From contig OZ038450.1 of NCBI GenBank assembly GCA_964036195.1, positions 21,233,208 to 21,297,207 of the forward strand: a DNA stretch of 64,000 nt, read 5' to 3'. Made by a program: the position numbers and the translations under genes. The notes beneath the pieces were generated by a model. The model saw nothing but the letters and a program-made list of their open reading frames with translations. It had not been told where the DNA came from and searched no databases. Below are positions 27,462 through 60,432 of this stretch, in pieces. The number at the start of each line of letters is the position of its first letter. Position 1 is the stretch's first letter. The stretch is from Sphaerolaimus hirsutus (lineage: Eukaryota; Nematoda; Chromadorea; Monhysterida; Sphaerolaimidae).

Positions 27462-27537
27462 AGTAGTAGGAGGCTAAGATAAACGACCATTTTTCGCGTT
27501 TTTTTCAAAAACGAGGTACCACCGATTTTTTTCGATT
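27462..27537 (+). repeat. Polinton left terminal inverted repeat
   Basis: Starts AGTAGTAGGAGGCTAAGATA and is identical over 76 bp to the reverse complement of 60,357-60,432; after that the two arms diverge (an AATTAATA-containing stretch still resembles). Contains the words CGAGGTACCACCG and AACGACCATTTTTCGCG. Confidence 0.97.
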
Positions 27538-27994
27538 CAATTTTTAATTAATATTTCTTGTTTTGCTAGTATCTGGGATTGGCTGGGATCTGGGTAGCTG
27601 AGCTTTTGTCTGGGCACACTAAGTGTATCTATTTTGATTGAATAAGCTAGGCCACAATGAAATCACGTGTGTTTCAGCTTACTTCAACAGTTGCCTCTAA
27701 AATGACTGAATTTTGGTCGAAAATCAGAGATGAACCCGCAAAAGTGTTATTTCACTGTGCTCCACATTATGAAGCTAAAATAGCCTCTGGTATACAGCGG
27801 TGTATCTACCCGGAGAAAGACAAGGACTCGGCCTAAAGTCCACATCTAATCTTTGAAAGTTAGAGTTTTAACTCTAACGAAATTGAAACATTTACTTGTA
27901 TAGGTAGTAAGGCAAATTTTCAATTGTAAATGTATTTATTTCACAAATTTCAATCACTCAACATCAAATGAACTTGAAAAAATCACACGGAAAA

Positions 27995-30900
27995 TCACTC
28001 TTCAGCCATCACTTCATCATCTGAACTGTCTGTCAAATTGATGTCGCTGACATCATTACCTTCGCAAATGGCACAGTTGAACCACCCAGTCACTACCAGT
28101 TTTTTGTGCTCATCGATTTCATTTGTTGTTTCCCTCTCAACTACAAGAAGATTTTCAAAAGTTTTTTTGAATATAAAAGTCTCAAATAATTAAATAGTAG
28201 GCTAACTCTTATTCAAAGTTTCGCATTGTTTGCCCCTAATTGTTCCCGCATTTGTTGTGCATTGATGGCAAATTTTTGTGCCATTTTCAACCTCCCTTTT
28301 GTGATCCTTTTTTCCTTTTTTACATTTTGCCAAAATGAATTTTATCGGTTCACATTCAGCTGAGTGACCTTCTGGGGACAATCCCAAACCATGTAAAGTG
28401 TCCAGTAAAATGTCAAATGTCATGCAAAGTGTCAAAAGTCATGTAAAATGTAAAATGGGAGTGTCCAGTAAAATGTCATGCAAAGTGTCAAAAGTCATGT
28501 AAAATGGTAGACATTTTACATATTTTACACTTGACATTTTACTTTACACATTACAGGGTTTGGGAGCGGCACCAGAGTCCATTGAATCCTCATCAATGTC
28601 TCCCACCAACCGCCAAATGGGAAATTTGGAATTGTGCACAGTCTCGCCCCCATTTTTCAAAACAACTTTCACTTTCACCAATGTCCCGATGTTTTCATTA
28701 AAAAAATCGATTCTTTGTTGTAATTCTTGTAGTCTATCTTTTGACCACTTTTCCAGATTTTTGTGCTGAAATGTAAAAATATTTTTTCCGCCATGAAATT
28801 GTTAAATATTGGAAAAATTTACAACCTCAACCATCAAATGATTTCTAACAGCTTCCATATCACACAACCTTTCCCCAGTGTACACCACACCCATTATATC
28901 CTGCATGCTGATATCTCTGAGTTGGTTGATACTTTCAACCATTTTGGCCCGACATTTTTCAACCATGTCTGCCTTTAGATCGATGGCCAAGTACTCACCG
29001 CGACACAATTGAATTGCAGTGAGGCCCTGAAAAGTTAGGTTTCATTTCGGGGGCTTTAAAAAAGCCCCCTTTTAAAAATATGATACCAATTTATGGTATT
29101 TATGTGTTCACCTTTGAGTATTTTTTGCGGTGCAACGCTGAGGTAGTTACTTTTGAGTATTTTTTGAGTATTTACCTCGAAACACTTGGGGAAAAACCCC
29201 TTTTTCATTCAACTCCCTAATTTCTTGAAACACCAATTTTGCGGGTTCACAATTACTACACATCTCCCTAGAGAAAAATGTAAGTAAATATCGAATAACC
29301 TTTTTCCCAGCCTTTAAATTTTCCAACAGCAAACCAAAGTTGCTGTAAATTTTGTTCATGATCTTGAAAGAACTTTGCATTCGCCGTTTCATGTTGTCAA
29401 CATCCCCACATTCACTCATGTCACTATCTGTTTCACCTTCAGTTTCCATATCAATGTAATCTTCATCTTCTCCCTCTGTGTCAATATCCCCACTTATCCA
29501 ACTATTTACACTGGCACCACTGTCTGTGTCACTCGAACTACTACTGTTCGGCGATTCCCCACCTGCCATTGTGTAATATAAATTACCCATCCCATCAGAG
29601 TAGAATATGAATGGCCCACCATTGTAGGGTACAGAGCTCGTGTAAAATGGACCTTCCCCGCTGTGAACATCTCCAGGCAAATTTCTTTGATTTTTCACAT
29701 TTCTGTGAAAATTTTCATTTTGAAAAAATATGAAAATTCAATTTGACGTTAAATAACATACTCATTTGTCAAGCGCACTGTAGGCAGCACAAAAGCGGGT
29801 GGTGGGCTTTTAGAAGGTGAAATAGGTGCCAAAATATCCGATGACGAATCACTGAGTTTTACATAAATGTGAAATAACATTTCCATTTGACAAATTTACA
29901 AAAGATTATCTTACAAACCAATTTTTTCCCTTTTTTGCAGCCACGGAACAATCGGACACCCCATCAATACCCACAAAACACTCCGACACTCCAACCACTG
30001 AATATTCTGGCAACCCAACTGCATTCGCCAGACACGCAGACCCGGCAGTTGCCAAACGTTTTGGTGCCCTTGCAACAGTTTCTGATGTGATCGGTGGTGA
30101 TTGTGGTGATGTCAAAGCGAATTCACTGCGGTCACTGAAAATTTTATGGACTCGTTTTTATTTATAGACGGTTTGTAAATATTGAACCCATATAGATCAT
30201 GTTTCATAAATTCATGTCAACAAAAAATTTCTTTGATTTTCCATACTCAGAAGTATTAAAATATACTCAAATATACATACTCACTCAATGGTAATGGACA
30301 GCTACCGGGCCGGTAGCAAATTTTTGGAAGGGTGTTTTATAAAAACACCCCAAAAAACTTTACATCCTCATATGAAAGTGAAAATTAAATAAAAAACAAA
30401 ATGTACCTAGTGTGATTTTTTCCCTCATGTTCGCCATTTGCCAAGTTGTCCTCAGACACCATAGGAAAGTCGTTACCAGGTACGGTAGGTGAGTTGTTAC
30501 CACTCGCTGTAGTCAAAGTATCACTCGACGCCAGTTCCGGCACCATCGCCGTGTTTGAATTGCCGCCTGAATGCGGTACCGGTACCGGTGCACCCAATAC
30601 GTCCGAATTGCCGCACGGTGCTGTTCTTGGCGCAGACCCCGACCCCACCAACATGTTCGAATTGCCACATGGCTCCATTTGTGAATCGTCCTCCAGCGGC
30701 GGAGAAGCAGCTGAATATCTGCAATATACTTTGATTTAGTTTTTTAGTACCATATTTGCTTGAATACTTACCCCTTGAATAACTCCCCCCTCAAATAACC
30801 CCCCTTTGTGACGAGTGAGAAAATAATAACCCCCCCTCGAATAGTTCCCCCTCAAAAATGTCTGACGAAATAATAACCCCAGGGATTATTCAAGCAAATA

Positions 30901-31162
30901 CGGTATCTCAAAACTTGTGAAATAACAAATGTCATGCATTTTTAAGTAGTTCACCCGGTGTACTTAAAGTTTATCGGAAGAGTTTCAATCAATGTCAAAT
31001 GTCACGCATGTCCAAAAGTTATTTAGAATATTTTCGAATCTCCAAAACTAACTGAAACGTGAATGGTGAAGACATTTTGCGTGATTTTGGAGAACTCGGA
31101 GATTCAAAAACTGTCTCCGAATCAGATTCAAAAATTGGGTCATCAGGCGTAAAAGTAGACAT
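27995..31162 (-). CDS. Unknown spliced Polinton accessory gene (left arm, minus strand)
   Basis: No family recognised. Exons on the minus strand: 31162-31053, 30718-30407, 30134-29919, 29851-29762, 29702 to about 29176, 29026-28826, 28765 to about 28555, about 28371-28205, and about 28148-27995 with TGA. The first five join in consistent phase. The junctions at about 29,176/29,026 and 28,555/28,371 are uncertain. The N-terminal half is Ser/Pro/Asn-rich and disordered. The centre has a strongly acidic Ser/Asp/Glu run (around 29,440-29,550), then a helical segment with Cys pairs (MCSNCEPAK). The C-terminal part holds a Gln/Lys-rich coiled-coil-like stretch, a CHQC motif and an acidic tail with CAIC. 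The design resembles a nuclear or adaptor protein more than an enzyme. It starts 590 bp from a divergent partner gene. Confidence 0.6.
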
Positions 31163-31751
31163 TTTTGGGCTGAATGTTTCAGATTGTGCTAAATATGAAA
31201 AATCCCGCTCTTAAATACCCCCCAATGCAGCAAATGTTTATATGTTTTTCACCTGTAAAATATTTATGAGTCATCAATTTTACGATTACACCCCAAAGAC
31301 GGTCGTAATTAAGACAATACCCACACATGAGTAAAAGCCCCCCCCCCCCCCCAGAAGCAGTAGGCCAACAGTGAAAAATTTTCATGAAAATGTGCCTAGC
31401 CGGATATTACCCATAAAATTTATAGCCACTCAATGTAATGTGCATGATCATGCATAGATATTCCCAAAACCAGTGCTTGGGGGGTGAAGCAGCACACAAG
31501 CATAAACGTCATGAAAATTTTGGCTTCAAAATAAATGGCCATGGCCACATATTACCCATAAAATTTATAACCAGTAAATTTTATGTCTCTACCTATACCC
31601 AAAATTATCAACTCTCGATCTGTGCAATAAAAATTACAATAAATAAAGTTATTTCACTTTTTTATGCATTAGCCACACATATAGGTAAAGCTATTTTTCA
31701 GAATTCAGTGTATTCTACCCATGTTATTTCTTCCACCAACTAAAAGTAGGA
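31163..31751. promoter_or_regulatory. Divergent promoter region of the left-arm gene pair
   Basis: 589 bp between two outward-facing start codons (31,162 minus, 31,752 plus). It contains a 14-base C run near 31,338 and two related AT-rich words ATTACCCATAAAATTTATA (31,408 and 31,550 area) in the same orientation. These might be promoter elements, but no clear TATA position could be assigned. Confidence 0.4.
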
Positions 31752-34124
31752 ATGAACAGAATCAAAAAGACTTGGCATTTGCTGTTTTTACATACTTTTT
31801 TGATCACAACATGCCACACTGTGTTAAGGTAGGTTCAACATTTTTATAATTTACAAAATTTCATTTTTTCCAAAAAATTTTAGACCCGATGGGGGCGGAA
31901 ATCAGGGCACCCATGACAAAAATTTGGAAAGTCTGGATGACTTTTTTGAACCAATAAATACAGGTGCGACTTTAAAAAATTAAATACCATATTTTTTCTA
32001 ATAGAAATGCAGACTTCTAATTGTATGTCACCTAGAATGGGTCATCATTTGAGTATGTAAGACAAAAAGTCAATGAAAAAATACAAAGGGTCGTTCTATT
32101 AGAAGAAATATGGTAAAAATCAAGTTTAAATTCTGGAAAAAAATCAGATCTAATTGAGCGACTAATAGAAGAAGACATCGCAAACACACCATCAACTTCA
32201 AATGCCGTGGGTGGTGACCGTCACACATCCCAAGGGAATACCGCACCAATAGGTAGGGTGGTAAATGGTAGGGCTCTGCGGTAAATGGTATGGTAAATAT
32301 TCATAAAAAGTAATTTTTACTGTACGGTAAACTTCTAAAATTTACCCTGTAAACAGCACGGTAAGGTGCTGTTAATATTTCCATTTTATGTCAACACATT
32401 AAATTTGTAAAATGCTGTAATCGGTACGGTATGGTACAGAAAATTTTACCACCATTCTACCAGTAGGTGATAGGCACTTTTCACAAGCAACTATTGGGCT
32501 AGTCAGTGATGGGATACATGGAAATGCAATTCAACCACGTCCTGTTGTTGTTGGTGGGACACCCTGTACTGAACAGAACCGACCCCAAAATCAGGTATTG
32601 TAAAGTAAATTAGTAGTACATTTCACAAGTAGCCCTATTTTTTCAGACATCAAACCAAATGCTAAGAATGTCTTCAACATTACCTAACCCAGTGAATAGC
32701 CAGCATGAACAGGTTGTTTTATATATGTACCAAAAATACAATTCGAAAAATTTGGAAAAATCTTTTACAGAACACCAGACCCAGTTTTCAACCAAGTAAT
32801 GTACCCACGGACAGTTATATAGGGCAACCAATTGGTGGACAAATACCCCCCATATCTTCAATTTTATCTGAAGTAACCCCCCAAATTCACATGCAAAGTT
32901 TTTACCCATGCAGTTTGAGACCCACTCAAAATGTCATAAATATACCACACCCAAGACAAGTTGAACAGTGCGTTAGATAAATTTTCCATAATTTTATTTT
33001 GTATATATGCCCAAAATTTGTGTGACATAAAAGGCATGTGGCGGGGAGACACCTGAACCCTAATGCACCCCCATTTCAACACCAACAACCACAACAGAAT
33101 GCAAATTTCCCCACAGTCATGTTTGTTTACACGTTAATATCAAATCATATCTTATAATGCATACCTTTTGAAGCAAGAAGTATTTAATAACAGACCCCAA
33201 AATGCACCCCCAAGAAGGACAAATTGCTTTCAAACTATTTATCAAATGATGACACCCCCTGTGGATGCAAATAACGTGGTGAATGTGGAAATTCACCCAT
33301 ATTTGACTGGGATGGACTCAAGGCAACTTATCATTTTCAATCAATTTAGGTGATTTTCCAAAAAAAAAATATAAAAAATTTGTGATGTAGAATGAAATTT
33401 TTTGCAGAACTCTTGGGCAATTAGTTAGAGCTGGTGTGATTGCAAAGTTTCCAGTTTGGAACCACAATATTTCTAATACATTGATTATCGATGATGCAGC
33501 CACTTTGGCAGTTTTTGTAAGTACTTATGTGAATGTATTACTGGTGGACATCACACTTAGTATGGAAACCTACCATAACTCACCTGAATAAGGTAACAAC
33601 AAATTTTGTTACAAGATTTTATTCACCAAATTATGGTAGGATTCAGCATAAACAGTCTTGTCCACCAAGTGTAATAAAATATAAATTTATTTGCCTTTTT
33701 TCAGATGGCCATTAGCAATATGGTCGCAATGTTTTTATCAATGGTCGGGGTTGGTAAAATGTTAGCCATAAACGGGAATATGCAGGCTGTGATAAATGGG
33801 AATTATATATATGATGTAATTCACAATTTTAACATAAATAGGACCTTTAGAGAGATGATATTTGCAAATATGTGGGCTGTAGATGGCTATATACCTACAT
33901 TTGTCAAGAATATGATGGATATATTCATCCGCGAAAATTCACCTAGTCTCTACAAGTACGCTACATCGAATTTTACCGGTCGAAATAGTGCATCACATGG
34001 CGTAATGCGACTCCGAAATGTAATGCATACAATTTTTTTTCAAAACACTTCTGGAGAGCATGGCCTATTTTTACTGTTCCTAATTATATGGATGAATTTT
34101 TATATGTACCAAGGTAGGGTGTGA
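31752..34124 (+). CDS. Unknown spliced Polinton accessory gene (left arm, plus strand)
   Basis: No family recognised. Exons: 31752-31828, 31884-31963, 32148-32252, 32464-32594, 32647-32712, 32771 to about 32967, one or two short exons between about 33,010 and 33,120, about 33,180-33349, 33408-33516, 33705-34124. The first five exons join in frame. Splice sites between 32,967 and 33,180 are uncertain, and the last exon could instead splice at a GTAGGG near 34,114. The start MNRIKKTWHLLFLHTFL is signal-peptide-like. The middle is Pro/Gln/Asn-rich and disordered. The last three exons form a conserved-looking domain of about 240 residues, rich in Met, Asn, Phe and Ile (for example RTLGQLVRAGVIAKFPVWNH and FANMWAVDGYIPTFVKNMMD). 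Intron 2 contains a TACCATATTTTTTC palindrome. Confidence 0.6.
31985..32115. repeat. TACCATATTTTTTCTAATAG palindrome in an intron
   Basis: Ends TACCATATTTTTTCTAATAG and TCTATTAGAAGAAATATGGTA; same family as 16,133-16,233. It shows that the Polinton cargo has been resident long enough, or in a similar host, to acquire the local small elements. Confidence 0.75.
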
Positions 34125-35662
34125 AAATTCGAAAAAATTGTCCAATGAAATTCCAAAAAAACCAACCTGTAAGTTGTATTTTATGCAAATAAACAGAAAA
34201 TCCACGTAGAAGTCAGTCCACTGAATAAATACATCCAATGCAAAAGCGAGAATTTCTAATCCCGAGTGTGAATGGGGTGTTGAAAATCAATAGAAGTCAT
34301 TCTCTTAACATGCTTGATCATCAAGGCCACTTTTCAGCAAAATACCTATTTTTGGCACATTTCCAAATAATCAAATAAGTACGAATGTGTATTACACTGG
34401 ATTTGAAATGTCAAAATGACCCAGATAGCTAGCAAAATCCTTATCTAACAGACGTTCACATCAATTCGCACATTTTTAGTTGCTGAAATGCGCTTTTTTA
34501 AGCTCATATTGATTTATTTTGCGCTATGTTACGTTTTTTCGTTCGCTTCCATATTTTTCGCCCAATCAACCCTACAGACGCTAGTTGACATCAACTGTCA
34601 ACTGGTTCCGAGGTACTAGTTGACATTGACACCAAATGTCAACTGGGCCCGACCTCGGTTCAGAGATTGCTAACGAGTCGACAAATGACATTCAAACTCA
34701 AGCTTTGATCCAAGATCGGCTCCAGTTGACATTTGGTGTCAATGTCAACTAGTATCTCGGAACCAGTTGACAGTTGATGTCAACTAGCGTCTGTAGGACC
34801 AATAATCCAATCTTTTGTTGCTACATTTCAGTTTTTATCATGTTTGGCCGGTTTGCAGTATTTTTATAAATTTTCGGTGAAAGTTTACACACCGCTATCC
34901 AGAAATTTACCACGGACCCGTGAAAAAGTTGGGTAATTTTCAGTGCTTTTTGGGTAATTTTGCAATTTGATGAATTTTTGACCCCAAGGTATGCATTTTA
35001 TCTGCCCAAAAATTATCAAAAATGTCATTCTATTTAATGTTTCTACTCGAGTTTATTTCAACGGCAATAAAATATGTCTATCTATTTGGAATAAAACAAT
35101 AGTCAACCCCGAATAAAAAGACTAATAAGTGGGCGGGCTGCGAAAATTGAAAGTTAAAATAGGTGCAATTCTTCCTTGTCAGTTTTTTCCTGGATTCAAT
35201 CCCAAACCCAGTAAAATACCCTTTAAAATGTCACGCAAAGTAGGGTTCAAATGGGATACCGATCCCAACCCGAAACCCAACCCTGTTCCCGATCCAGACC
35301 CCGAAATTTCAAAATATCAATCCCGACCCCAAACCTGACACTGAAAACCCAATCCCGAAACCTCAAAATCCCAATCCCGACTTCGATTCCGACCCCGGAA
35401 CCCAATTCCGACCCCGATTCCGAAATATCAAAAACTAATTCCCGATCCCAACCCTAAAAAGTAAATCCTGTTTGAGTCCTAATGAGCAAAGTGTCAAAAG
35501 TCATGTAAAATAGTGTTGAAAAATGGCAACTGATATTTCTATGGTGAATTTTCATGCCCCGCCCACTTATTAGCCTTTTATTTGGGACAATGTATTGAAA
35601 TTGGATTTTTTCAACTTTACAGACCCCCTCGCCACCAGAAGAGCACCGAGCTGCGTATTAGA
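34125..35662. other. Non-coding left-arm spacer with two foldbacks and a GGGATC-type element
   Basis: 34,577-34,793 is an almost perfect palindrome: ACGCTAGTTGACATCAACTG faces CAGTTGATGTCAACTAGCGT, and inner arms CTAGTTGACATTGACACC also pair. 35,241-35,481 begins TAGGGTTCAAATGGGA and ends GTTTGAGTCCTA, a worn GGGATC-type element with no clear duplication. It interrupts a TGTAAAATGTC foldback (35,210-35,520). No coding exons were recognised. Confidence 0.6.
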
Positions 35663-38600
35663 ATGTGGTTTTTTAATTTGGCGCTGTTTTTCATCGCGGC
35701 CGTGCAATTGGTCAGCGCCAATTCACCCTGCGACAACCGTTTGTGCGATTGCGTCGGTGACAAGGCAATTTGCTCCGTTTTGCCCCGCCATGATTTGACA
35801 TCGTTAGTTTGATATCGGTTTTAATTTCCCACCCCAATTAACCACCCCAACCCCACCTTGATTATCAAGCACTGGCCCCCAACCCCGATTTTTCAGCTCC
35901 AATCACCTAAACCCCGATTATCTAGTTCCGATTACACAGTTCCGACCACACAGTAGAGTTCAAACGGGATTGACTTTTTGGGATCGGGATTGGGAATTAT
36001 TTTTTGATATTTCGGGATTGGGATCGGGATGGGATTGGGGTTTCGGGATTGGGACTACTAAATCCCGGAATTTCACGGGATTCGGGATCGGGATCGGGAT
36101 CCCGTTTGAACCCTATCACACAGTACCAATTACCCAATCCATTTTCTGACCCATTTGTACATCTCACACCCATTTCAGACACCCACCCCAGATTTCTGAC
36201 AAACCCAGCTATCACGCAGGTACGGGGTTGAGTCGGACATCCGGAACCTCGTTGTCAAGGCCCCCGCCCGCTCCCTGTGCGACGCAGTCCGCGAAAAGTT
36301 CCCGTACGCCGACAATTACGAGTGTGAAAATACGGTGGGTTTTATTGTGTGAATTTTATCGTGTGAACAGTTTTTTCATCAAAAAAATACCCAAAAGACA
36401 GTGGGTATTTTCAGGGGGTTTTCTGTGGACATTTTTTCATCGCTAAAAAATGTCTCCCCGAAATTCAGGGCAACGGCAAGAAGGGCGGCAGCGGCACCCG
36501 CTCCGGCATCAGTGCACTCACGCCGTTCCGCTCGGTGGCAGTGGCACCGTTCCGTTCGGCGGCACCGGCACCGTTCCGTTCGGCGGCAGCGGCACCGCTC
36601 AATTTGAACAATTATGCGGACAGTCTCGACAAAAAGGTTAGAATTTGGGGTTTTTTGGAGGTTTCTGAACCTTGGGGTGTTTGGGGGGGTGGTCTGAACA
36701 TTTTTGTGGGTTTTTTTTGCGAGATTTTTACAAAATTTTGGAACAAGGTAAGGTGGAATCTGTAAAAACATATTTATCAATCCTGGTAAATATCAGTAAA
36801 AAATGCCTAGGTAAATAGTTGAAAGGGGTGGGTTTCAAAATAGAGACTTTTCAGGATCGGGGTCAGGATTGTTTTTTTCGGGGGTTTTTGGAATCAGTAA
36901 TTTATGTGCAAATTTTTTCAAAATATTGCAGCCACCAGTACTGATTGGTGAGTCTACAACTTTGGCTATTACATTACCCCCTACCACTGACAAATTGACT
37001 ACTACCACTGACAAATTTACTACCACTGACAAATTGACTACCACCACTGACAAACCTACCACTAAATCTATGACTGGTGCACCTACTTTGTCAGTAACTG
37101 TCTCATCCACTGAATTGACAACACAGACCAAACCACACCCACAGAGAATGGTTTACAAATCTAAAAATGGTGAATTGAAATACTGTGAAGTCACATCTTA
37201 TAAATGTGACTGCAATGCGTGTGCCAAGAAATGCCCCTGCTCCACCCCCCCTCCTTGTACAACTACAGAGAAATGCACCCCGCATATCATATGGGTGTGT
37301 TTTGTTTGTTTTTAGAGTCAAATGTGAAAATACCAAAGTATTTTACTCAATTTGGCCATTTTTTAGATCACCCCATCACCACCAAACGCGACATCACCCA
37401 CAACCACCATTTCAACAACCCCCTTCCTGACCACCCCCTTTTTGACAACCCCCCATCCATCCACTCCCACTTCGACTTCGACCCTAACCCCTTCACCCCC
37501 GACAAATCCCCCGCGCACCCTACCCCCTTCACCCCCGACAAACCCCCCATGCACACCACCCCCGCCAAAGTGTGAATTCAAAGAAGCTGTGCGCATGGTT
37601 ATGAAAGACAATGAATATGTGGGTCGTTTGTGTGCATATCATGAATCACTCAGGAAAATGTGAGTTGATCTGTGTTGCAATTCGAATATTTTTCTCGATT
37701 TCTGAAAAGTATGTGAGACAAGTTTGGTGCACCATTTTAGAGATGCCGCGCCTACCACAACTGTCTCGCCCACCACAACTGTCACGCCTACCACAGCTGA
37801 AACATCCGCACAATCTGTTACCAATGATACCCCCCAAATGGCATTTTTGGTACACAGTAATGGTGCAAAATCATCATCTGGTGGAGTTGATTCTGAGAAA
37901 AGTCTGGTGGATCAGGATTTGACTGAAAAGGTACATAATTGTCACTGTTACACCTAGAATAGATTTTAGTTTGTTTTTGACAGATTTGACTGAAAATAGG
38001 TTGTCTTTTAAACCTATTTTCGGTTTGTGGTGCAGTACCTGGTAAAATGTGAATTTAAAAAGAAATGTTAAATTTGTAGGTTGATCGCATTATCAAGATC
38101 GTGGAGCGCACCCTGGGCACCGTCGAGCGCATCCTACCCATCGTCGAGCGCACCCTGCCCATTGTCGAACACACCCTGGACACCGTGGAGAGTATTCAAA
38201 AATACGTAGAAGATTGGTTTTATAAGGCGTATGACAACGCCTTCCAAGGGGGTACCAATTTGGTGATATTTTTTGGCGCCTACTGTTTCCAAATTGCGTA
38301 TCAGGTGAGATCATTGAATTTTTCACCCCCCCAATCTGCTGAGCATTGTGAATAACAATGAAAGTATACATTTTTCCCCCCCACAACCCGCTGAATATTG
38401 TGAATAAAGGTGAAAATATGTATTTCCCCACCCCTCAACTAGGGTTCAAACGGGATTGACTTTTCGGGATCGGGATCGGGATCGGGATTCACTTTTTGAG
38501 ATTTCGGGATCGGGATCGGGATCGGGATTGGGGTTTCGGGATCGGGATCGGGATCGGGATTGGTTTTTTGAAATTTCGGGATCGGGATCGGGATCGGGAT

Positions 38601-51836: not shown

Positions 51837-51838
51837 AT

Positions 51839-52594
51839 TTATTGATCACACACTGTTATAAAATTGGTTGCTTTGCTGGGGTCGTCACCGTAATTTGTTG
51901 ACAAGTCATACACGACTTGGTCTTGGGAGTTTTCGTTGAAAATGTTTGATCTCGCCTGAAAAATAGGGTTGGGTATATGTTGAAATGATACTAATAAATA
52001 TCCGTAAGGTTGAGAAATTGCGTCACTATATGCAAGTAGGAATTTTTTTTTCTGTTCACTTTTCCCGAACCAACTAGTAGCTAATGAATTTACAACCTGT
52101 TCTGTCGGGTATTTAAACAAAACGAGATAAGAGCAATTTCTCCTAATCACCTTAAGGCTGGGGCTGTAATAAGGATCGTGTACCTGTATTAATGTTATCA
52201 AATTCTTTGAATGACTAACAGAATTTGTAATTAGTCGACTGGTGTACCATTGTGGTAATAATAACTGCATATCATCATATACGACTATTTGGGCCAAATT
52301 AGTATCTTCCAGTGAAGCTAGAGAAGGAACTTTATTGCGTTCCAATATTTCCACCTTATCGGGGAATTCATTCTGCAATTGTTGATAAACAGGGTGATTA
52401 TTCTGATTGCTTCCTGAGCAAATTAAAACTTTATCTGGTATTTGATCCAAATTAAACAACCCTCTTAATGCGTGTTGTATAAACTTCAATGTCCAAGAAC
52501 TTTTGCCACATTTACTAGGACCGATTATCAAGTATGACTGACCGTAATTTGCTAATCGGACATCCTGTTCAGTGAAGTACTTTTCGTTCGTCAT
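51839..52594 (-). CDS. ATP: Genome-packaging ATPase (FtsK/HerA type)
   Basis: 251 aa from the ATG at 52,594. Walker A is GPSKCGKSSW (about residues 24-33) and Walker B is IVVYDDMQLL. The A32-like ATPases of Polintons, adintoviruses and large DNA viruses pump the genome into the capsid; length and motif spacing agree. The start overlaps the end of the PolB gene by 26 bases. Confidence 0.93.
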   Translation of the reverse strand: MTNEKYFTEQDVRLANYGQSYLIIGPSKCGKSSWTLKFIQHALRGLFNLDQIPDKVLICSGSNQNNHPVYQQLQNEFPDKVEILERNKVPSLASLEDTNLAQIVVYDDMQLLLPQWYTSRLITNSVSHSKNLITLIQVHDPYYSPSLKVIRRNCSYLVLFKYPTEQVVNSLATSWFGKSEQKKKFLLAYSDAISQPYGYLLVSFQHIPNPIFQARSNIFNENSQDQVVYDLSTNYGDDPSKATNFITVCDQ

Positions 52595-55500
52595 TATCAC
52601 CACCAGCAGTGCGTTGGTGCGGTCTTTGCCCCAAATATCCCCAGGGGATGGACCAAGGTTGGTCGTTAAACCAGTAATGATATCTTTTTTTAAGTTGAAA
52701 ATGAACGCGTTTAATGACCTTGTCGGTTGTAATAGATAAAAGGTTTGGTGTGTGTCTGAACTGGAGATTCTCAGTACTTATATAATGTGGTGAAAAAATT
52801 TGTGGAGAGAAATAAGATACCAATTGTTTCTTCAACTCATTACTTTGTAAAGAATGTTGATTTTCATTCGTCATGCGAACTCCTTTAGCTTTCAGCGTAG
52901 TATACACATTCCTGGGATCACATTTTTTCCTGTACGTGAGTGAATAAAATTTATTAGCGATGCCGATAAATTCACTTATAAATTCACCATCTGGGACATC
53001 GCTACCTAAACCACCTAATATACCTGGGTTGAGTTCTGGGTGGAACTGGCCTTCTTTAGTCCCGGTAGCGTAATAGCAACTATCCGTATCAGAATACAAT
53101 AATTGTGTGTATTGGAATTGTTCTAAAAGCCTTTGTAATATAGATCTAGCATAGCTAGTAATATAAAGTGCCAAAATGATACAAGAATTTGTGGAATTCA
53201 CAACGTACTCATTAGCGGTTTTCATTTTTACTCGGGCGATATTTTTATCCATGATAAAAATTTCGTCTACATCATTCATTGGTGAAAAAACAGTAGTCAT
53301 GAACTTGGCTGGATCCTTTATGAACACATATTTTGACTTTTGGCTATTTAGCCCCAATTGACCGTATGAGCTGTTGAGCAATAATTTGCAGACTCTAGTC
53401 TTGGCTGGGTTTTCTTGAAATTTATCTGGGTCTAACTTGCACTTTTCTACTTGGTAAAACTTTTCGCAAAATGCCAACTTCTCTTGTTCATTGCTAAAGT
53501 TGTGTTTAGAGGACAAAACTTTTAGAGCAAAAATTTTGTCGATGAATGTGCTAAAGACACCTTCTGTTGGTGATTCTGGTGACCACACGGATACGTGGTC
53601 ATATATTAGTGCTTCATAAGCGCAAATGATGGTATATTTCCTCTCTAAAGCCATGTTTAGGCAGTTAACTGACCAAGTACCAGACATTTTTCTCTGTTTT
53701 TTTGAACAATTACACACGTAGGATCCGTCTGGTGGAGGTAACTTTGCTTTACCCGATGCATACTTTTTTGCGCAAGTGTAGCACAAAGCGTAAACTGAAA
53801 ATTGATCTATTTTCATAGGTAGACATGGAAGGAGTAAATCTCGGGGTGGTAATATGTCAACCTGCAAGACACCTGCCGTAAACGGTAACAATTTACCAGA
53901 ATAATTAGTTAAAAATTCTAATTGTTCTTGAGATAGTACCCTGGGTGCCTTGATAGGCATGGGGAACTTTTTCATAGTCGCTGGATATTGACTACATATA
54001 TCCACGGCATTAATAGTTCGATTTGGGTCAAAGTCTAATGGTAAATTTTCTTCGAAAAGGTTCCCGTTTGGGTTAGTACTAAAAAAACACTTGAATAGTT
54101 CTGTCCTGCCTCCGAAATAAGCTGATCTCATATCCAGTGGCTCCCTAACTTTTGAAGAATTAAATATCTTACTAAATATTAAACTTTCCCTCCTCAGTCT
54201 ATGAACATCACATTCCCACCAAACTTCTACGCGTACACCCAATTGCTTTTGAATCATGTCAATTCGTTTCATAGTATTTTCATAATTTTCCTTGTGTGAC
54301 AGGTGAGATTGCCTCATTTTTGTGTGTCTTGATGGGAAACATTGTTTGCAAGAGTGTACTGCGCACCCGAACAGTTCGCGAAAAAAATCAATTTTTGTTT
54401 TATTTTCGTCTTTATACACCACACAATCAATCTTAAACTTTCTGTATGAATTTGCATCTTGGTCAAAACAGGACACTACCTTTTCACCTTCTTGTGATCT
54501 AGAATATTGAATATACTTGTTGTCGAAATACTTGGCCAAAGCGACTATACTTTTCAAACCCCATTTGCTCTGATTGTCGCCAGTGTTAAAACTGTTGCGA
54601 GGTGGTGTGTGTACTATAAGTGATGTGTCCACATGTTGACTTTTCCATATAAAGTTGGCCAGACTACTGAGACTTTTTGAATTGAGGTGTGGTATTATAT
54701 TAAAAGTATAATAAATCTCTTTTGAAAATTTGATAAAAGCCTCTTCTAAAACCATGGTGTCTGATTTGATGTACTCGTAACATTCTTTCTTGATATCAAA
54801 TTCCATATGCTTATTCTTTTCGTACCATTCCATAAATAATTTTCTCTCGTCACTTTTCATGCTTTCAACATCGTAAAAGTCTGGTGAAGGTAATACTTCA
54901 TATGTGGCATGCAAATTGTGTTCCGTCACAATTTGGTGCGGAAAATTACCTTTGCGAACTGAGCAATTGAAAGCTTTCCCGACCTGTGCTAAACTCATGG
55001 GGAAATATTTTAATGAACACATGAAACTGATTTGGTTGTTTAGGCGCATATAAAAAATGTGTCTAGCATTTGAAAGCAACAATTTTGGAATTTGCCCATT
55101 TTTAATAAAAATGGATAATATTTCACATAAATCAAAACTCAAATTGTGGGCGACTACTGTTAAGTTAACGTGTCTCTTGTAATCCATTAAAAAATAGTAA
55201 AACTCTGATATAGCATTTAAACCGTAAAAAAATCTAGTGCATGACAAACACGGGTCACATGCCCGTTCTTGTAAAAAACATTCATTGCACCTTTTTAAGC
55301 AATACACCGCATAAGTCGAATGTACTTTACGAAATACTTTTTCTTTGTCTGATGGAGCTTCTTCCCCCCATTGTTTTTGTTTTGTTTCTACAACAGGTTT
55401 TTGAAACGTTTCAGTGTCGTAGAAAATTAATTGAAATTTTCTACCGGGGAACTTGTGCTCATATGGAATAGGTCTCTGAAAAAAACATTCAAACTGGTGA

Positions 55501-57137
55501 GTCCTGAATGTCTTTTTCATTGAAACGTTGGTTCCGCAATAACTACATTTGGTAAAACCGCAGTTATCGTGATTTTGACCCAAAGTTACTTTTTTGTTGC
55601 ACTTGCCACAAAAATGCACGCACTGACACACAGTTAATGGTTCGCAAGATGAAGGTGGGCTCAGACTCTGTATGTCACTTGTGTTCAAACAACTGTCACT
55701 ATCTGAATCGTCTGTGTCTCCATACACTTTAGTAATGGTGACGTTAGATTTGTGTGGAAATACATTTACCAAGTGGTTTTCATAACACTTATTACTATAA
55801 AATGACCTATTGCACTTTGAACAAACTATAGTTTTTGCGCCTTTGTCTATAGGGCAAATTTCCGAAGCGTAACACATGGAACAAGTTGATTTCGAACATT
55901 TGCATGGAGTATCCTTGTTGAAAATGATTTTATTGCAACAATCTGTGACTCTGTAGCAATTAGCTAATGTACTTATTGATTTAATCAATACCACATGTTG
56001 TTCCCTTTCGTCATACAATAAATCGATACATGCATTTTTCTTGCCGGTGAAACTTTGAAATATCAATTCCACCCCACCTTCCCTAATAGACCAAACCCTG
56101 CAACTGTATTTTACGTGTTTGTATACTGGTGGAAATTTGTTGAGCGCCTTCAAAAGTATATTTATATTGCCATACAAATCTTTGCACTGCATATCATACT
56201 TAAAACATGACCTGGCGAATTCTACAAATTTGGTTACATCTTTCTCTAGTAGTTTGAAATGACCCATTCTATTTTTCCTTTTGTACCTCTTGAATAAATT
56301 ACGTTTTTTACTTATGGTTGCCAAGATACTTTGACGCCCCATAAACAAACAAATGGGTAAGCATTGATCAGGTAGAGATGACAAGTTTGGTGGGTTGTAT
56401 AGAGCTTTCTTGTGATAAGTTATTCTACTCTGAACATCTGGTAAAAACTTTGTAAACGAATCAAATCCTTTTGCTACAATATCTTTACGTTCCACAGTCG
56501 TAATATTCACTGAAAAACCATTCAGTAAGTTGTCTTCTTCTATCCCCGCGGATTGAAAAATCATTTCAACTCTATTTAAAATAGAAGCTATTGATACATT
56601 CTGCAGGTGAGTAATTTTTGATAGTATGTAACCCCTATCAAAACTCTTTGACATAACTTTTATTCCAACGAAAATTCTTTTTTTCTCTTCAACTTGCTTG
56701 TCTGAAAAATAATCGACATAAACTTTTTCAATGCATTTGGCTAAAATATATTCCAAAAAAGTTATAGGGTCACTAACTTTATCTTCTAAATTTGGGACAA
56801 ATTTTACGTCATACACGTAATAATTAGTATAAAACTTACCATTTTTTTCTAACCACGGTTCTTCAATCTTAAACAACTCCTTCCACTTGGGTTCAGTATT
56901 GTCGATTTCTCTAATATTGTCCTTGATGAATTCATAATGTTTATTCAGACTGACGTCATCAGCTTCTTCGTATTGAATTTTACCTTCATCTATTTCGTCA
57001 TCTGATGATGAAAACTCTGTAGGGGGTTGTTGGTCTTCAGGGGGTGGGCTGTCTACCAACTCGTAGGTTCGTTGTTCATCAGTCATGTCGGTTGGTCGGT
57101 TGGTCGGTCGGTCGTCCTTGTTGCTGCGCCGCGTCAT
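52569..57137 (-). CDS. POLB: Protein-primed family B DNA polymerase
   Basis: 1522 aa. Exonuclease motifs: FYDTETF (about 572), VAHNLSFD, and YIKSDT. Polymerase motifs: DICSQYP (motif A), KLLLNSSYGQLG (motif B), YSDTDSC (motif C). A TPR-type insertion (region with CKQCFPSRHTKMRQ, then a long helical stretch) lies between the exonuclease and motif A, as in protein-primed enzymes. About 550 residues precede the exonuclease; they include two Cys/His clusters (around 400-452 and 503-551: CKCSKSTCSMC, CSKCNRSFYSNKC, CGKCNKKV, CSYCGTNV). An in-frame second ATG lies at 57,086, just after a GACC-repeat-encoded DRPTNRPTD; the true start could be either. The enzyme replicates the element. Confidence 0.95.
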   Translation of the reverse strand: MTRRSNKDDRPTNRPTDMTDEQRTYELVDSPPPEDQQPPTEFSSSDDEIDEGKIQYEEADDVSLNKHYEFIKDNIREIDNTEPKWKELFKIEEPWLEKNGKFYTNYYVYDVKFVPNLEDKVSDPITFLEYILAKCIEKVYVDYFSDKQVEEKKRIFVGIKVMSKSFDRGYILSKITHLQNVSIASILNRVEMIFQSAGIEEDNLLNGFSVNITTVERKDIVAKGFDSFTKFLPDVQSRITYHKKALYNPPNLSSLPDQCLPICLFMGRQSILATISKKRNLFKRYKRKNRMGHFKLLEKDVTKFVEFARSCFKYDMQCKDLYGNINILLKALNKFPPVYKHVKYSCRVWSIREGGVELIFQSFTGKKNACIDLLYDEREQHVVLIKSISTLANCYRVTDCCNKIIFNKDTPCKCSKSTCSMCYASEICPIDKGAKTIVCSKCNRSFYSNKCYENHLVNVFPHKSNVTITKVYGDTDDSDSDSCLNTSDIQSLSPPSSCEPLTVCQCVHFCGKCNKKVTLGQNHDNCGFTKCSYCGTNVSMKKTFRTHQFECFFQRPIPYEHKFPGRKFQLIFYDTETFQKPVVETKQKQWGEEAPSDKEKVFRKVHSTYAVYCLKRCNECFLQERACDPCLSCTRFFYGLNAISEFYYFLMDYKRHVNLTVVAHNLSFDLCEILSIFIKNGQIPKLLLSNARHIFYMRLNNQISFMCSLKYFPMSLAQVGKAFNCSVRKGNFPHQIVTEHNLHATYEVLPSPDFYDVESMKSDERKLFMEWYEKNKHMEFDIKKECYEYIKSDTMVLEEAFIKFSKEIYYTFNIIPHLNSKSLSSLANFIWKSQHVDTSLIVHTPPRNSFNTGDNQSKWGLKSIVALAKYFDNKYIQYSRSQEGEKVVSCFDQDANSYRKFKIDCVVYKDENKTKIDFFRELFGCAVHSCKQCFPSRHTKMRQSHLSHKENYENTMKRIDMIQKQLGVRVEVWWECDVHRLRRESLIFSKIFNSSKVREPLDMRSAYFGGRTELFKCFFSTNPNGNLFEENLPLDFDPNRTINAVDICSQYPATMKKFPMPIKAPRVLSQEQLEFLTNYSGKLLPFTAGVLQVDILPPRDLLLPCLPMKIDQFSVYALCYTCAKKYASGKAKLPPPDGSYVCNCSKKQRKMSGTWSVNCLNMALERKYTIICAYEALIYDHVSVWSPESPTEGVFSTFIDKIFALKVLSSKHNFSNEQEKLAFCEKFYQVEKCKLDPDKFQENPAKTRVCKLLLNSSYGQLGLNSQKSKYVFIKDPAKFMTTVFSPMNDVDEIFIMDKNIARVKMKTANEYVVNSTNSCIILALYITSYARSILQRLLEQFQYTQLLYSDTDSCYYATGTKEGQFHPELNPGILGGLGSDVPDGEFISEFIGIANKFYSLTYRKKCDPRNVYTTLKAKGVRMTNENQHSLQSNELKKQLVSYFSPQIFSPHYISTENLQFRHTPNLLSITTDKVIKRVHFQLKKRYHYWFNDQPWSIPWGYLGQRPHQRTAGGDNDERKVLH
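57087..57116. repeat. GGTC/GGTT microsatellite at the PolB start
   Basis: GGTTGGTCGGTTGGTCGGTC and neighbours. It lies between the two possible PolB start codons, and if the downstream ATG is used it is 5' leader sequence. The same motif lies just upstream of the gene starting at 44,239. Confidence 0.8.
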
Positions 57138-57515
57138 CCGTCGTCGTCCGTCGTCAAATGGAGACTATTGGGCGATTCCCAACCCATTTTATAATGCTGC
57201 CGTAGAGTCATAAAATTTTATTATGGTGAATCATGGCGCATATAAAATTTTAGTGGACATAAAATTTATTGACAATAACTTTTATAACTTTACATGGGAT
57301 TGTAGAGAGCGGTATAAAAGAGTGGGTGACTTGCTTTTCCTTTCATATTTTGAAAAATAAAAGCATTCGAAGCCTAAATCAAACCCGTTAGCTGGTCAAT
57401 AGTGAAAGGATACATCTACCAAAGCAATTCAAAAGAGTATATAAGGTTAGATATTTTGTCATAAGAAAGTTGTTAACTTTGATTGGTTGATGTGATTTGG
57501 GTAAATTATTTACAG
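57138..57515. promoter_or_regulatory. Divergent promoter region: PolB versus right-arm cluster
   Basis: A minus-strand TATAAAAT at 57,193-57,186 lies about 50 bases upstream of the PolB frame. A plus-strand TATAAAAG at 57,313-57,320 lies about 200 bases upstream of the first right-arm gene. Between them are AT-rich words ATAAAATTTTA and ATAAAATTTATT that resemble the 44.4-kb divergent region. A possible 5'UTR intron runs from the GTTAGA near 57,447 to the TTTACAG before the ATG at 57,516. Confidence 0.55.
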
Positions 57516-58022
57516 ATGGGCAGACTTAAAGATATAGAAGTGGAACTTCTTACGCTGAGTGAAGATGTCTTTGTGCACAGTCAAATCAGTAGCACTGAGT
57601 ATCAGAATCTTTTCAAAAATGGTAAAGTGCGTAGAGAAAAACGGAAACTGAAAAACATACCTGATTCTATATCAGCATGTAGACTAGCCTCTAAAATACG
57701 AGATGCCTGTCAAATATTGCCCAATTCAATCAAATTGGACATGTTATTAAGAACGCATGTTAGACGACTCAAGTTGTCTAAAATATTAAACGTATGTAAA
57801 TACAAAGACAGGGAGATTAAAATAAAAGTATTGTTCCACATAGAAAAAAGAAATGAAAATAATAACACTAGAATGGCATTCATTTCTTTCTGGCTAAAAG
57901 ACTTGAACTTTTATCTCAACTTGAGAAACCCTCTTTTTGTATTCACCTGGTTAGATGACGAATACGACTACATGTCGGATGGTGGAATTACCGATTCGTC
58001 TGACAGCATTGATACTTCATAA
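57516..58022 (+). CDS. Hypothetical right-arm protein 1, 168 aa
   Basis: First gene of a six-gene plus-strand cluster. The ATG directly follows TTATTTACAG. Basic helical N-terminal half, a beta-like segment with FISFWLKDLNFYLN, and a very acidic Ser/Asp tail (DDEYDYMSDGG...). The W-L-x-D-x-N pattern is similar to the W-[LI]-N-G-x-N motif in proteins 4 and 5 of the cluster. No known family. Confidence 0.65.
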   Translation: MGRLKDIEVELLTLSEDVFVHSQISSTEYQNLFKNGKVRREKRKLKNIPDSISACRLASKIRDACQILPNSIKLDMLLRTHVRRLKLSKILNVCKYKDREIKIKVLFHIEKRNENNNTRMAFISFWLKDLNFYLNLRNPLFVFTWLDDEYDYMSDGGITDSSDSIDTS

Positions 58023-58033
58023 CGCTCTCAGAT

Positions 58034-58357
58034 ATGGGTCAGACAATACAGAGAATAAGTAACGAAAAAGAGTTGAGAGAAGGGATAAGCAAAAAGATTT
58101 TGAAAGAAAAAAAGAGTTTTTATGCCGTGTCAGTGCTGTTCTTCCCTAGGGGGATTGATAAGTACGCAATAAATATTGAACGTTTATCCCCTTCCAAAGC
58201 GGCTGACAATACATTAGATAAAATTTTTTGTACTGAGCATGATGCACTCAATTATATAAGATTGCATGATAGTGGTGACATTTGTGATTCCCTACATAAA
58301 TATTACGTCACTTTCAAATTTCAACTTGATGAAGTGAATGTTACACCCGCAATATGA
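58034..58357 (+). CDS. Hypothetical right-arm protein 2, 107 aa
   Basis: The ATG is two bases after CTCTCAGAT, 11 bases beyond the previous stop. Basic N-terminus, then mixed alpha/beta sequence with FYAVSVLFFPRG and YYVTFKF. No recognised family or membrane segment. Confidence 0.6.
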   Translation: MGQTIQRISNEKELREGISKKILKEKKSFYAVSVLFFPRGIDKYAINIERLSPSKAADNTLDKIFCTEHDALNYIRLHDSGDICDSLHKYYVTFKFQLDEVNVTPAI

Positions 58358-58376
58358 TGCACTATTTTTCATAGGT

Positions 58377-58727
58377 ATGGCCACTAATGGGAAAACCTTG
58401 CGAGAATTGAAAAGATATGTGAAATCTCATCATGAAAACGATGGTCGCTACGAGGGAATGTTGATTGCTATAGATTGGGATGATTTTAAAGAAAAGAGTT
58501 TAAGCGAAAGAAATGCTATATTTGAAAAATACTTGAAAGAAAAAACATTAAAGTTCAATACTAAATCGGCTGCCATCAATTTCGCATGTAGAAGATTAGC
58601 AGATAATACTGTAGGGAATGGTGGCAATGCGTATTTATTGCTAACAAAGTTTGCACTTAAGCACATAGAAATTATAAATATAAAAGATTGCGAAGAATAC
58701 TCCTATATGGTTGAGGAAAATCTTTAA
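58377..58727 (+). CDS. Hypothetical right-arm protein 3, 116 aa
   Basis: Starts MATNGKTLRELKRY just after TTTTTCATAGGT; an upstream in-frame ATG at 58,338 would overlap the previous gene by 20 bases and is less likely. Helical, charged, with a short hydrophobic stretch (NAYLLLTKFALKHIEIINI). No recognised family. Confidence 0.6.
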   Translation: MATNGKTLRELKRYVKSHHENDGRYEGMLIAIDWDDFKEKSLSERNAIFEKYLKEKTLKFNTKSAAINFACRRLADNTVGNGGNAYLLLTKFALKHIEIINIKDCEEYSYMVEENL

Positions 58728-58738
58728 CAACATTTCAG

Positions 58739-59245
58739 ATGCTATTTGGAAAAAATGGGAGATTTATGAACAATTATGTAATAAGAAAGAATCACACCAG
58801 ATCAAGTTGGAAAGCGACATTATACAAAACAAGTTTCGACAAATACGCGCTGACACACGAAGAGTTTTTGGAGAACATGGACTCATTCAATAATGAACAC
58901 ACCAGAAGAATTGATTTTAAAAACAAAGTTACAACCAACACATCTGTACTAGAATTGATGAGTTCATTATCGTGCAAGGGAATGATGCCTCTGATCATAT
59001 TGGAGATATTCGCAAGATCAATGGGTAGTGGCATTACATTAGAAAAATTTGTGCATCCTTTATGCGGCAATAAGACATATCATTTCATCATACTCGAACA
59101 AACTGCGATGGGTATTAGTAGAACATTCGCTACTGGTGATCGATTTTACAGTATATGGTTGAATGGGATGAACTTGTGCAATTATGCTTCGGGTAATATA
59201 GAGAGGATTAGAATTTGTGGTATTAGAATAATTGATTCTTCCTGA
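58739..59245 (+). CDS. Hypothetical right-arm protein 4, 168 aa
   Basis: The ATG directly follows AACATTTCAG. Basic N-terminal 30 residues, a hydrophobic helix (MPLIILEIFARSMGSGITL), and a C-terminal segment FYSIWLNGMNLCNY that shares the W-[LI]-N-G-x-N pattern with protein 5. No recognised family. Confidence 0.6.
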   Translation: MLFGKNGRFMNNYVIRKNHTRSSWKATLYKTSFDKYALTHEEFLENMDSFNNEHTRRIDFKNKVTTNTSVLELMSSLSCKGMMPLIILEIFARSMGSGITLEKFVHPLCGNKTYHFIILEQTAMGISRTFATGDRFYSIWLNGMNLCNYASGNIERIRICGIRIIDSS

Positions 59246-59261
59246 TTACAGGTAAACGAAA

Positions 59262-59900
59262 ATGGATAATGCACCGACGAGAATTAAGCAGAGTAAAAAT
59301 ATAAAAAAATTGTTCCTCAATGTTTACACATTACCATTGGAATATGCGGATTTGAGTACTGTGGACTTTAGGGAAGATTTGGATAAATTTGAGAAATATG
59401 TTGAAAAACATGAATTCAATTGTTCTATTCCTCGCTATACACCAGTGACTGATATATTAATAAGTTTGGGAAAGACGCACAAGATCCCATTCAACTTGGA
59501 TTTAATTTATAATTTAATGCCTTGCAGTGGTTATACAGACAACCGCATAGAAGTAAACCCATATGAAAATGAAGATTTGGCATATAGAAGACCCGAATAC
59601 CGAGGTCCCAATTTGTTGATTGATAAATTTCTGATAAATAACATGTATAAAGATAGGATTTATATTGTATTATTGCAGCAAAAAATTCGTAAAGTTCTAT
59701 TCTCATACACCTACAAATATACATTATGGATTAATGGGGAGAACATGAACCATTACTACAAAAGAGACCCTTACATAAGAACCTGGTTGAGGAGGCGACC
59801 AAATGAAAATTTCAATCCATATAAAGATGGGATAGAATGTAGTACTTTAGAGAAAGATGGAAAAACACAAATAGTTGGTAACTACTTATTTGACCGTTAA
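59262..59900 (+). CDS. Hypothetical right-arm protein 5, 212 aa
   Basis: The ATG lies 12 bases after TGATTACAG. Rich in Tyr, Asn and Lys. The last 60 residues contain YTLWINGENMNHYY, similar to FYSIWLNGMNLCNY in protein 4, which suggests distant paralogy. It ends nine bases before the dUTPase ATG. No recognised family. Confidence 0.6.
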   Translation: MDNAPTRIKQSKNIKKLFLNVYTLPLEYADLSTVDFREDLDKFEKYVEKHEFNCSIPRYTPVTDILISLGKTHKIPFNLDLIYNLMPCSGYTDNRIEVNPYENEDLAYRRPEYRGPNLLIDKFLINNMYKDRIYIVLLQQKIRKVLFSYTYKYTLWINGENMNHYYKRDPYIRTWLRRRPNENFNPYKDGIECSTLEKDGKTQIVGNYLFDR

Positions 59901-59908
59901 CGACGCAG

Positions 59909-60340
59909 ATGTGTGAGTTGATGAAATTTGAATTGATAAGCAATAGCGCGACCGTTCCATTGAAATGTACTCCAAAGGCTGCCGGTTTCGACATTGCCAG
60001 TTCTGAAGAATACTTTATACCACCAAAAGAACGATTAATTGTCAAAACAGATTTGAAAGTTCAATTTCCCGAAGGTTGTTATGGTCGTTTAGCTTCCCGT
60101 AGTGGTCTTTCCATGTTTCACGGAATTGAAGTTGGTGGGGGTGTGATAGACCCAGATTACGATGGAGAAATAAAAGTGATCTTATACAATCATTCCAATA
60201 ATTGGTATCACGTCAGCAAAGGTGACAGAATCGCACAACTCATTTGCGAACGCTACTCCAATGCTGTGTGTCACAATGTGGATATATCTTGTTGCAGCCA
60301 CGGGGTTCGCTCCGTTGGCTTCGGTTCCTCTGGCTATTAA
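59909..60340 (+). CDS. DUT: dUTPase (deoxyuridine triphosphatase)
   Basis: 143 aa, the usual trimeric dUTPase size. Converts dUTP to dUMP and pyrophosphate, limiting uracil incorporation during element replication. Five motifs are present: AAGFDIAS (I), GRLASRSGL (II, catalytic Ser-Gly region), GVIDPDYDGE (III, catalytic Asp), GDRIAQLI (IV), and the C-terminal GFGSSGY (V), the P-loop-like lid. The start MCELMKF follows ACGCAG. Last gene of the right-arm cluster; its stop is 16 bases before the terminal repeat. Confidence 0.96.
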   Translation: MCELMKFELISNSATVPLKCTPKAAGFDIASSEEYFIPPKERLIVKTDLKVQFPEGCYGRLASRSGLSMFHGIEVGGGVIDPDYDGEIKVILYNHSNNWYHVSKGDRIAQLICERYSNAVCHNVDISCCSHGVRSVGFGSSGY

Positions 60341-60356
60341 TTAAAATGAAAAATCA

Positions 60357-60432
60357 AATCGAAAAAAATCGGTGGTACCTCGTTTTTGAAAAAAACGCGA
60401 AAAATGGTCGTTTATCTTAGCCTCCTACTACT
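60357..60432 (-). repeat. Polinton right terminal inverted repeat
   Basis: Ends CCTCCTACTACT, then TTTGGG (host duplication). Exact inverse of the left terminal repeat. It begins only about 16 bases after the stop codon of the dUTPase gene, so the right arm has almost no sub-terminal spacer. Confidence 0.97.

Follow-up and report, generated by a model that had tools for sequence, protein, structure and literature searches.

A 33-kb Polinton of the nematode Sphaerolaimus hirsutus with a near-identical backbone and a left arm of three types

Introduction

What makes a Polinton about twice as long as its vertebrate relatives, and does the additional DNA belong to the element? The question is raised by a 32,971-bp element in the nematode Sphaerolaimus hirsutus, which lies at 27462-60432 of a 64,000-nt stretch of contig OZ038450.1 (hereinafter the window, whose positions serve as coordinates throughout). 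An initial annotation regarded it as a complete and recently moved Polinton/Maverick with a left arm of cellular-type cargo. Here we report that the element is a complete, recently active and unusually large Polinton/Maverick with seven full-length copies in the host assembly, and that these copies combine a near-identical backbone with a left-arm cassette of three diverged types.

A complete Polinton in seven copies

The terminal inverted repeats of the element (27462-27537 on the + strand, starting AGTAGT, and 60357-60432 on the - strand, ending ACTACT) are identical over 76 bp and 97% identical over 88 bp. A perfect 6-bp target-site duplication, TTTGGG, flanks the element on each side (27456-27461 and 60433-60438), and the only two occurrences of the repeat tip in the window are at the element ends, against zero expected from shuffling. 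The ends also carry the (AGT)2//(ACT)2 motif of vertebrate Mavericks (PMC8097293; here and below, comparisons with the literature hold for the available parts of the cited papers). Because a family B DNA polymerase (PolB), an integrase, terminal repeats, a 6-bp duplication and the end motif are all present, the element is a Polinton, and the repeats, the duplication and the backbone genes bear out its completeness. The annotated size also holds, 32,971 bp being about twice the mean of 16.9 +/- 1.7 kb of 134 intact vertebrate Mavericks (PMC8097293).

We searched the host assembly (348,482,957 bases in 762 contigs; C1, C2 and so on are working contig labels) with the left terminal repeat and obtained at least 15 full-length matches, 14 of which pair into seven elements on four contigs, with lengths of 32,391, 32,406, 32,515, 32,971 (the window copy), 33,548, 38,039 and 44,929 bp. 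We designate the window copy E1, the copies on C1, C13 and C7 E2, E3 and E4, and the three copies on C6 E5 (at 13.9 Mb), E6 (at 3.0 Mb) and E7 (at 4.6 Mb). All seven are flanked by perfect 6-bp duplications, each different (from E1 to E7: TTTGGG, TACATG, AACGCA, AATACA, TACGGT, ACTTGC and CATATT). Five of the seven measure 32.4-33.5 kb, which is thus the usual size of the element. A homologous left end and an exon of a left-arm gene (gene B, below) are found in every copy, indicating that the left arm is a regular component of it.

Some copies have peculiarities of their own. The fifteenth repeat match stems from the doubling of one E2 end; the two instances lie 3 kb from each other and have the same flank (C1, about 33.92 Mb; 100% identity over 2,323 bp), which is either a real duplication or an assembly error. 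In or beside gene B, E7 apparently contains several kb of inserted sequence, and the length of E3 exceeds that of E1 by 12 kb.

A near-identical backbone joined to a cassette of three types

We compared E1 with E2, E4, E5 and E6 in 250-bp tiles, using pieces fetched separately. Tiles between about 41.5 kb and the right end are 96-100% alike, except those at 41,712 (86% in one copy) and 44,212 (86-87% in three copies). This backbone (41.5-60.3 kb) has 18,646 sites at which all five copies are aligned, and any two copies differ at 29-120 of them (0.16-0.64%), in keeping with the recent movement that the initial annotation had read from the identical ends. In 16 backbone open reading frame (ORF) segments of E1 compared with the four other copies, the proportion of synonymous sites that differ (pS) is 0.0039-0.0093 and its nonsynonymous counterpart relative to it (pN/pS) is 0.13-0.28; the reading frame is broken in 2 of 64 gene-by-copy comparisons, once by a premature stop and once by a frameshift.

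The left end of the element (27462-27961) is likewise near-constant, at 95-100% identity among six copies and 82.8-87.5% to E7. Between it and the backbone lies a variable cassette (27962-41283), across which (about 28.0-41.2 kb) identity in the aligned parts drops to 62% and some tiles are without a match. The right junction of the cassette is sharp and lies at about 41.28 kb when E1 is compared with the other four copies, and at 41.12-41.21 kb when the second and third types described below are compared with each other.

The seven cassettes fall into three diverged but homologous types: type I in E1 and E3, type II in E2 and E5, and type III in E4, E6 and E7. Within types, E2 and E5 differ by 0.76% (96 of 12,558 positions), E4 and E6 by 0.20% (26 of 13,055), and identity between E1 and E3 is 99.3% over two fetched pieces, with 97.3% for the left-end piece. 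E3, on another contig and with another duplication, is the second copy with the same left-arm genes that the initial annotation had named as decisive for whether the arm belongs to the element. Same-type cassettes at separate loci differ mostly by 0.2-0.8%, which indicates a recent spread of whole elements. E7 was assigned to type III from its left end (99.0-99.1% identity), 158 bp in gene B (99.4%) and a gene B exon score equal to that of E4 and E6; beyond those 158 bp, the two fetched E7 pieces have no left-arm match. Between groups, identity in the left-end piece is 75.9-90.4%, and the right ends of all seven copies are 99.4-99.9% identical.

The cassette carries three predicted spliced genes

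Three multi-exon genes had been annotated in the left arm, and comparison between types upholds them, as their exons are conserved and several GT/AG sites are shared. The spliced structures are predictions in which we kept exons of genes A, B and C where the comparison supported them. Gene A (27998-31210, - strand, approximate exon ends) would encode a protein with an acidic N-terminal half and a Cys-rich C-terminal half. Gene B (31884-34124, + strand, start uncertain, last exon about 33705-34124) has a weak SAP-like motif near its N terminus (E 0.0096, below the Pfam cut-off), a conserved C-terminal domain and, close to the end, a hydrophobic stretch (mean 2.02). Gene C (35660-40216, + strand, approximate exon ends) is a predicted membrane glycoprotein gene, whose product would contain a signal peptide, a Cys module, a Thr-rich mucin-like part, a heptad-like stretch, a hydrophobic segment and a Pro-rich tail. 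The signal peptide and Cys module are conserved, and the transmembrane candidate (exon 38080-38304) is modest, with a mean hydropathy of 1.47 over 15 residues in E1 and 1.92 in type III. The gene C product is probably a surface glycoprotein.

None of the exons of genes A, B and C that we scanned matches Pfam above cut-off, and no cellular domain is found among them. A 293-residue piece of gene B has no relative at E 0.01 in the protein database (word-limited search, 222 candidates scored) and no credible match in the PDB. The initial notion of cellular-type cargo is therefore retained in part: the left arm does travel with the element, but its scanned exons hold no cellular domain and it is a constant part of all seven copies. 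With its signal peptide, mucin-like part and modest hydrophobic stretch, gene C resembles a variable accessory gene of virus type more than it does cellular cargo.

We estimated synonymous divergence (dS) and the ratio of nonsynonymous to synonymous divergence (dN/dS) with the NG86 method, pooled over chosen exon intervals, for E1 against types II and III. The dS values are 0.78 and 0.28 for gene A, 0.10 and 0.69 for gene B, and 0.27 and 0.60 for gene C, with dN/dS of 0.16 and 0.18, 0.20 and 0.21, and 0.23 and 0.25, respectively; synonymous difference in the backbone is, by comparison, 0.004-0.009. Judged by the low dN/dS in the predicted exons, the left arm looks coding. Genes B and C have GT/AG sites common to the three types at several of their exon borders (for example 37367, 37660, 37741, 37931, 38080 and 38305), as counted without a chance expectation; at other borders, such as the end of the first exon of gene C, no splice site conserved between types was found.

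Backbone and cassette relationships disagree

E5 has a backbone that is closest to that of E6 (0.156%) and differs from that of E2 by 0.536%. The cassette of E5 is of type II, like that of E2, and differs from that of E6 by 14% even across the 4,430 bp that aligned. The relationships of backbone and cassette thus disagree. Within the backbone, 28 of the 29 sites common to E1 and E2 lie at 41.5-47.4 kb, and all nine sites common to E2 and E5 lie at 48.6-52.4 kb. The clustering of these nine among the 38 sites has a P value of 1.8e-7, calculated post hoc and without the five sites that show three rarer two-copy patterns. The cassette of E1 is itself a mosaic, closer to type III at 28.0-29.2 kb and closer to type II over most of the remainder.

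Repeats of the kind found in the host flanks occupy 6, 8, 8, 4 and 8 intervals in the left arms of E1, E2, E4, E5 and E6, and none in the 19-kb backbone of any of these copies. All eight repeat coordinates are common to E4 and E6, and E2 has all four of those in E5, with some E2 intervals falling within an E2-specific insertion. This coincidence within types indicates that the repeats moved with the element, and the cassette probably resided in this host lineage or in related ones. Palindromic hairpins resembling miniature inverted-repeat transposable elements lie in or beside the left arm of E1 (34571-34797, 39226-39433, 39747-39904 and 41783-41951); a relative of the one at 34.6 kb lies at 8350, within the flank.

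Gene B also has matches outside these copies. Across the assembly, 92 sequences match its last exon (26-100% identity), many of them in equal-score sets across many contigs, as in mobile elements. We sampled five gene B loci outside the seven copies, on C15, C14, C2, C4 and C9. In the C15 element, gene B is 53% and the major capsid protein 86% identical to ours; at C14, gene B is 64%, integrase 89%, ATPase 92% and PolB 90% identical. Gene B is thus more diverged than the core genes in these two related families.

Proposed exchange of the cassette and alternative explanations

We consider it rather probable that the three spliced genes of the 13-kb left arm form an exchangeable cassette, held in three old types by elements that recombine while replicating together. 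Elements of different lineages would replicate in one cell, where PolB would copy linear DNA; template switching in the conserved regions on either side of the cassette, or crossover there, could then combine one backbone with another arm, and the recombined elements would reinsert by means of the integrase. The types might persist if the functions of the cassette, a surface glycoprotein and regulators, meet the host or other elements such that being different pays, much as serotypes or superinfection types persist. Bolder, and put forward more tentatively, is the proposal that the glycoprotein and its two companions form a type cassette with at least three ancient alleles recombining onto one backbone that is successful at present, a eukaryotic transposon's counterpart of the serotype or superinfection-type loci of viruses and phages.

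Several observations weigh against this interpretation. The likeness of the backbones could reflect gene conversion between resident copies, and the sample from which type maintenance (balancing selection) would be judged is one assembly with seven copies in a 2:2:3 ratio. The types are not uniform, as E1 and E3 are 97.3% identical in the left-end piece and the first 500 bp of E7 are 82.8-87.5% identical to the rest. The glycoprotein call relies on pattern and hydropathy, with a modest transmembrane candidate, and the end of gene B is hydrophobic too (2.02). The dN/dS intervals were picked once codon scores and conservation were known, without an out-of-frame control; three stops occur in two compared intervals that overrun likely exon ends, and some alignments are partial. 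Finally, reading to one side of the gene B loci on C2, C4 and C9, for 11.3, 11.0 and 5.0 kb, revealed no core protein, so intact Polintons may not be the only home of gene B. Together with the base composition noted below, this leaves some probability for a cellular or other mobile source.

The main rival is concerted evolution through gene conversion among the resident copies. Under this explanation, which we consider unlikely, the insertions are older: conversion homogenizes a backbone that was similar beforehand, left arms too diverged for it escape, and no cassette is exchanged at replication. The blocks of shared sites within the backbone resemble conversion tracts, and a process that needs similarity would stop at a diverged arm. 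However, the left 0.5 kb is also 95-100% alike in six of the seven copies, which would require separate conversion tracts, the backbone pN/pS of 0.13-0.28 points to selection during active replication, and the small differences within a cassette type from locus to locus speak for a recent spread of whole elements.

Somewhat less probable still is that the left arm is captured host cargo, derived from cellular genes with their introns and repeats and since diversified, with the scattered gene B loci as its source. The introns and the confinement of flank-type repeats to the left arm would fit such an origin, as would base composition (the guanine-plus-cytosine content at 35-45 kb is mostly 0.43-0.47, closer to the flanks than the 0.33-0.41 at 45-60 kb) and the 92 gene B matches, with three of the five sampled loci lacking core genes in the stretches read. 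Capture is harder to reconcile with a gene B exon in all seven copies, in the second family (C15) and together with core genes at C14, with the lack of Pfam matches above cut-off in the scanned exons of genes A to C and of any relative of the 293-residue gene B piece at E 0.01 in the word-limited search, or with the many equal-score sets of gene B matches, which are expected of mobile copies. An assembly artefact or chimera, with outer repeats that would not enclose a single insertion, is very improbable: the doubled end of E2 may be an assembly error, but seven different perfect duplications and the 32.4-33.5 kb length of five of the seven copies largely refute it.

If the cassette is indeed exchanged, the joining of a near-identical backbone to old, constrained arms of several types would mean that distinct elements come together and recombine within a cell; the use of several versions of one accessory block would imply some force that keeps them. 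The locus bears on whether Polintons still spread as viruses and offers a place to address questions of entry, immunity or exclusion.

Comparison with known elements

Intact vertebrate Mavericks (Barreat and Katzourakis 2021, PMC8097293) resemble the present element in PolB, integrase, an ATPase (putative in our element), the 6-bp duplication, the end motif and accessory regions that flank the core. Intact vertebrate elements measure 12.7-24.6 kb and are described as intronless (PMC8097293), in contrast to our seven copies, which measure 32.4-44.9 kb and have predicted spliced left-arm genes in three types on one backbone. Size and lack of introns are descriptive traits of the vertebrate set rather than family criteria, and the contrast suggests that the picture of Polintons as intronless elements of 15-20 kb is too narrow for this group.

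The fusogen of nematode Mavericks is reportedly herpesvirus-like. The nematode Mavericks of Widen et al. carry this protein, described as 'similar to viral fusogens', together with cargo genes (PMC10680173); the cargo is wosp or krma. They share with our element the general plan of a Polinton with extra genes, among them a candidate membrane protein with a possible role in entry. The EMALE virophages of Cafeteria are likewise integrated elements in many copies, with capsid genes, which in our element are putative (PMC8547959). EMALE01 and EMALE02 have one part in common and a second part that differs, which the authors ascribe to probable recombination exchanging the morphogenesis module; the part exchanged there is unrelated DNA (PMC8547959), whereas the cassette types are homologous alleles of a non-structural arm, each found in several copies of one genome. 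Module exchange thus has a virophage precedent (PMC8547959), and cargo a nematode Maverick precedent (PMC10680173).

Polinton-like viruses of protists, at 14-40 kb, are comparable in size (PMC12220804); as described in a further source, Polinton-like viruses are mostly without the pair of pPolB and RVE integrase (PMC11071308), both of which our element has. Adintoviruses share PolB and an rve integrase with our element, a likeness that rests on these two genes, and show mixed pairings of hexon and polymerase clades (PMC11071296). Defining for adintoviruses are a hexon recognisable by BLASTp and a PolB with an OTU-like N-terminal domain. No description of a multi-type Polinton cassette was found among the matches listed, which cover titles and abstract starts of openly licensed PMC papers.

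Genes of the constant backbone

The ORFs of the backbone are uninterrupted, introns being predicted just in the left-arm genes and in the dUTPase-like gene E. Nearest to the cassette is region D (42521-44368, - strand), which is constant between types and contains ORFs at 42521-43204, 43276-43818 and 43655-44368, one of which has no credible PDB match. Gene E (44550-45159, + strand) consists of 44550-44835 and 44903-45159 around a predicted 67-bp intron and, spliced as predicted, matches PF00692 (E 7e-7). By eye its motif 3 appears degenerate, the catalytic motif seemingly having been lost, which recalls the adenovirus E4 proteins derived from dUTPase. The right arm ends in a dUTPase (59894-60340, + strand; PF00692, E 1e-32), so that the element has two dUTPase-type genes if gene E is spliced as predicted. 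Four further right-arm ORFs lie at 57483-59900 (+ strand), giving five ORFs of at least 120 amino acids in an arm where a six-gene cluster had been annotated.

Among the core genes named by the initial annotation, PolB and the integrase are confirmed. PolB (52569-57164, - strand, 1531 amino acids) matches PF03175 (E 4e-35), and a relative at 27% identity is an annotated protein of the catfish Ictalurus furcatus with PF03175. The retrovirus-like integrase (49399-50478, - strand) matches rve (E 4e-5, below the Pfam cut-off) and the Ty3 integrase (E 1.5e-5). The putative packaging-type ATPase (51839-52777, - strand) has a visible P-loop, its sole library match being AAA_29, weak and below cut-off (E 0.002). 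The protease and the two capsid ORFs are open, and their names come from gene order or position, size and motifs read by eye, Pfam, PDB and PHROGs having given none. The putative adenain-like cysteine protease (45519-46055, - strand) was recognized by position and an H/D/C motif, the putative minor capsid (penton) protein (48056-49129, - strand) by position; neither these two nor the putative major capsid protein (46085-47536, - strand) has a Pfam match or a credible PDB match. The major capsid ORF has two unnamed metagenome relatives at 22-25% identity, and its AlphaFold model, built with three sequences, is too poor for use (predicted local distance difference test score, pLDDT, of 33).

Beside the capsid genes, a short Lys/Arg-rich protein of 150 amino acids (47603-48055, - strand) presumably resembles a DNA-condensing core protein, and two further Polinton ORFs lie at 50483-51845 (- strand). 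The viral contig collection yielded no relatives of the major capsid protein, PolB or ATPase, the genome contig collection yielded none of PolB, and a PHROGs scan gave only matches with E > 0.01.

Flanking sequence and a second family

An Rfam scan of the window at gathering scores gave no match. The left flank contains host exons at 1521-1922 and 4406-4888 (- strand) and at 6257-6721 and 10874-11356 (+ strand), with matches to CCT epsilon and, weakly and below cut-off, to CDC45. The CCT epsilon exon matches PDB chains at E 3e-34 and, together with the weak CDC45 matches, shows a eukaryotic host. Elsewhere in the assembly, a second Polinton family with related terminal repeats is present on C16, C15 and C13 (at 4210566), its right arm being about 77% identical in two 1.5-kb pieces (C16 and C15).

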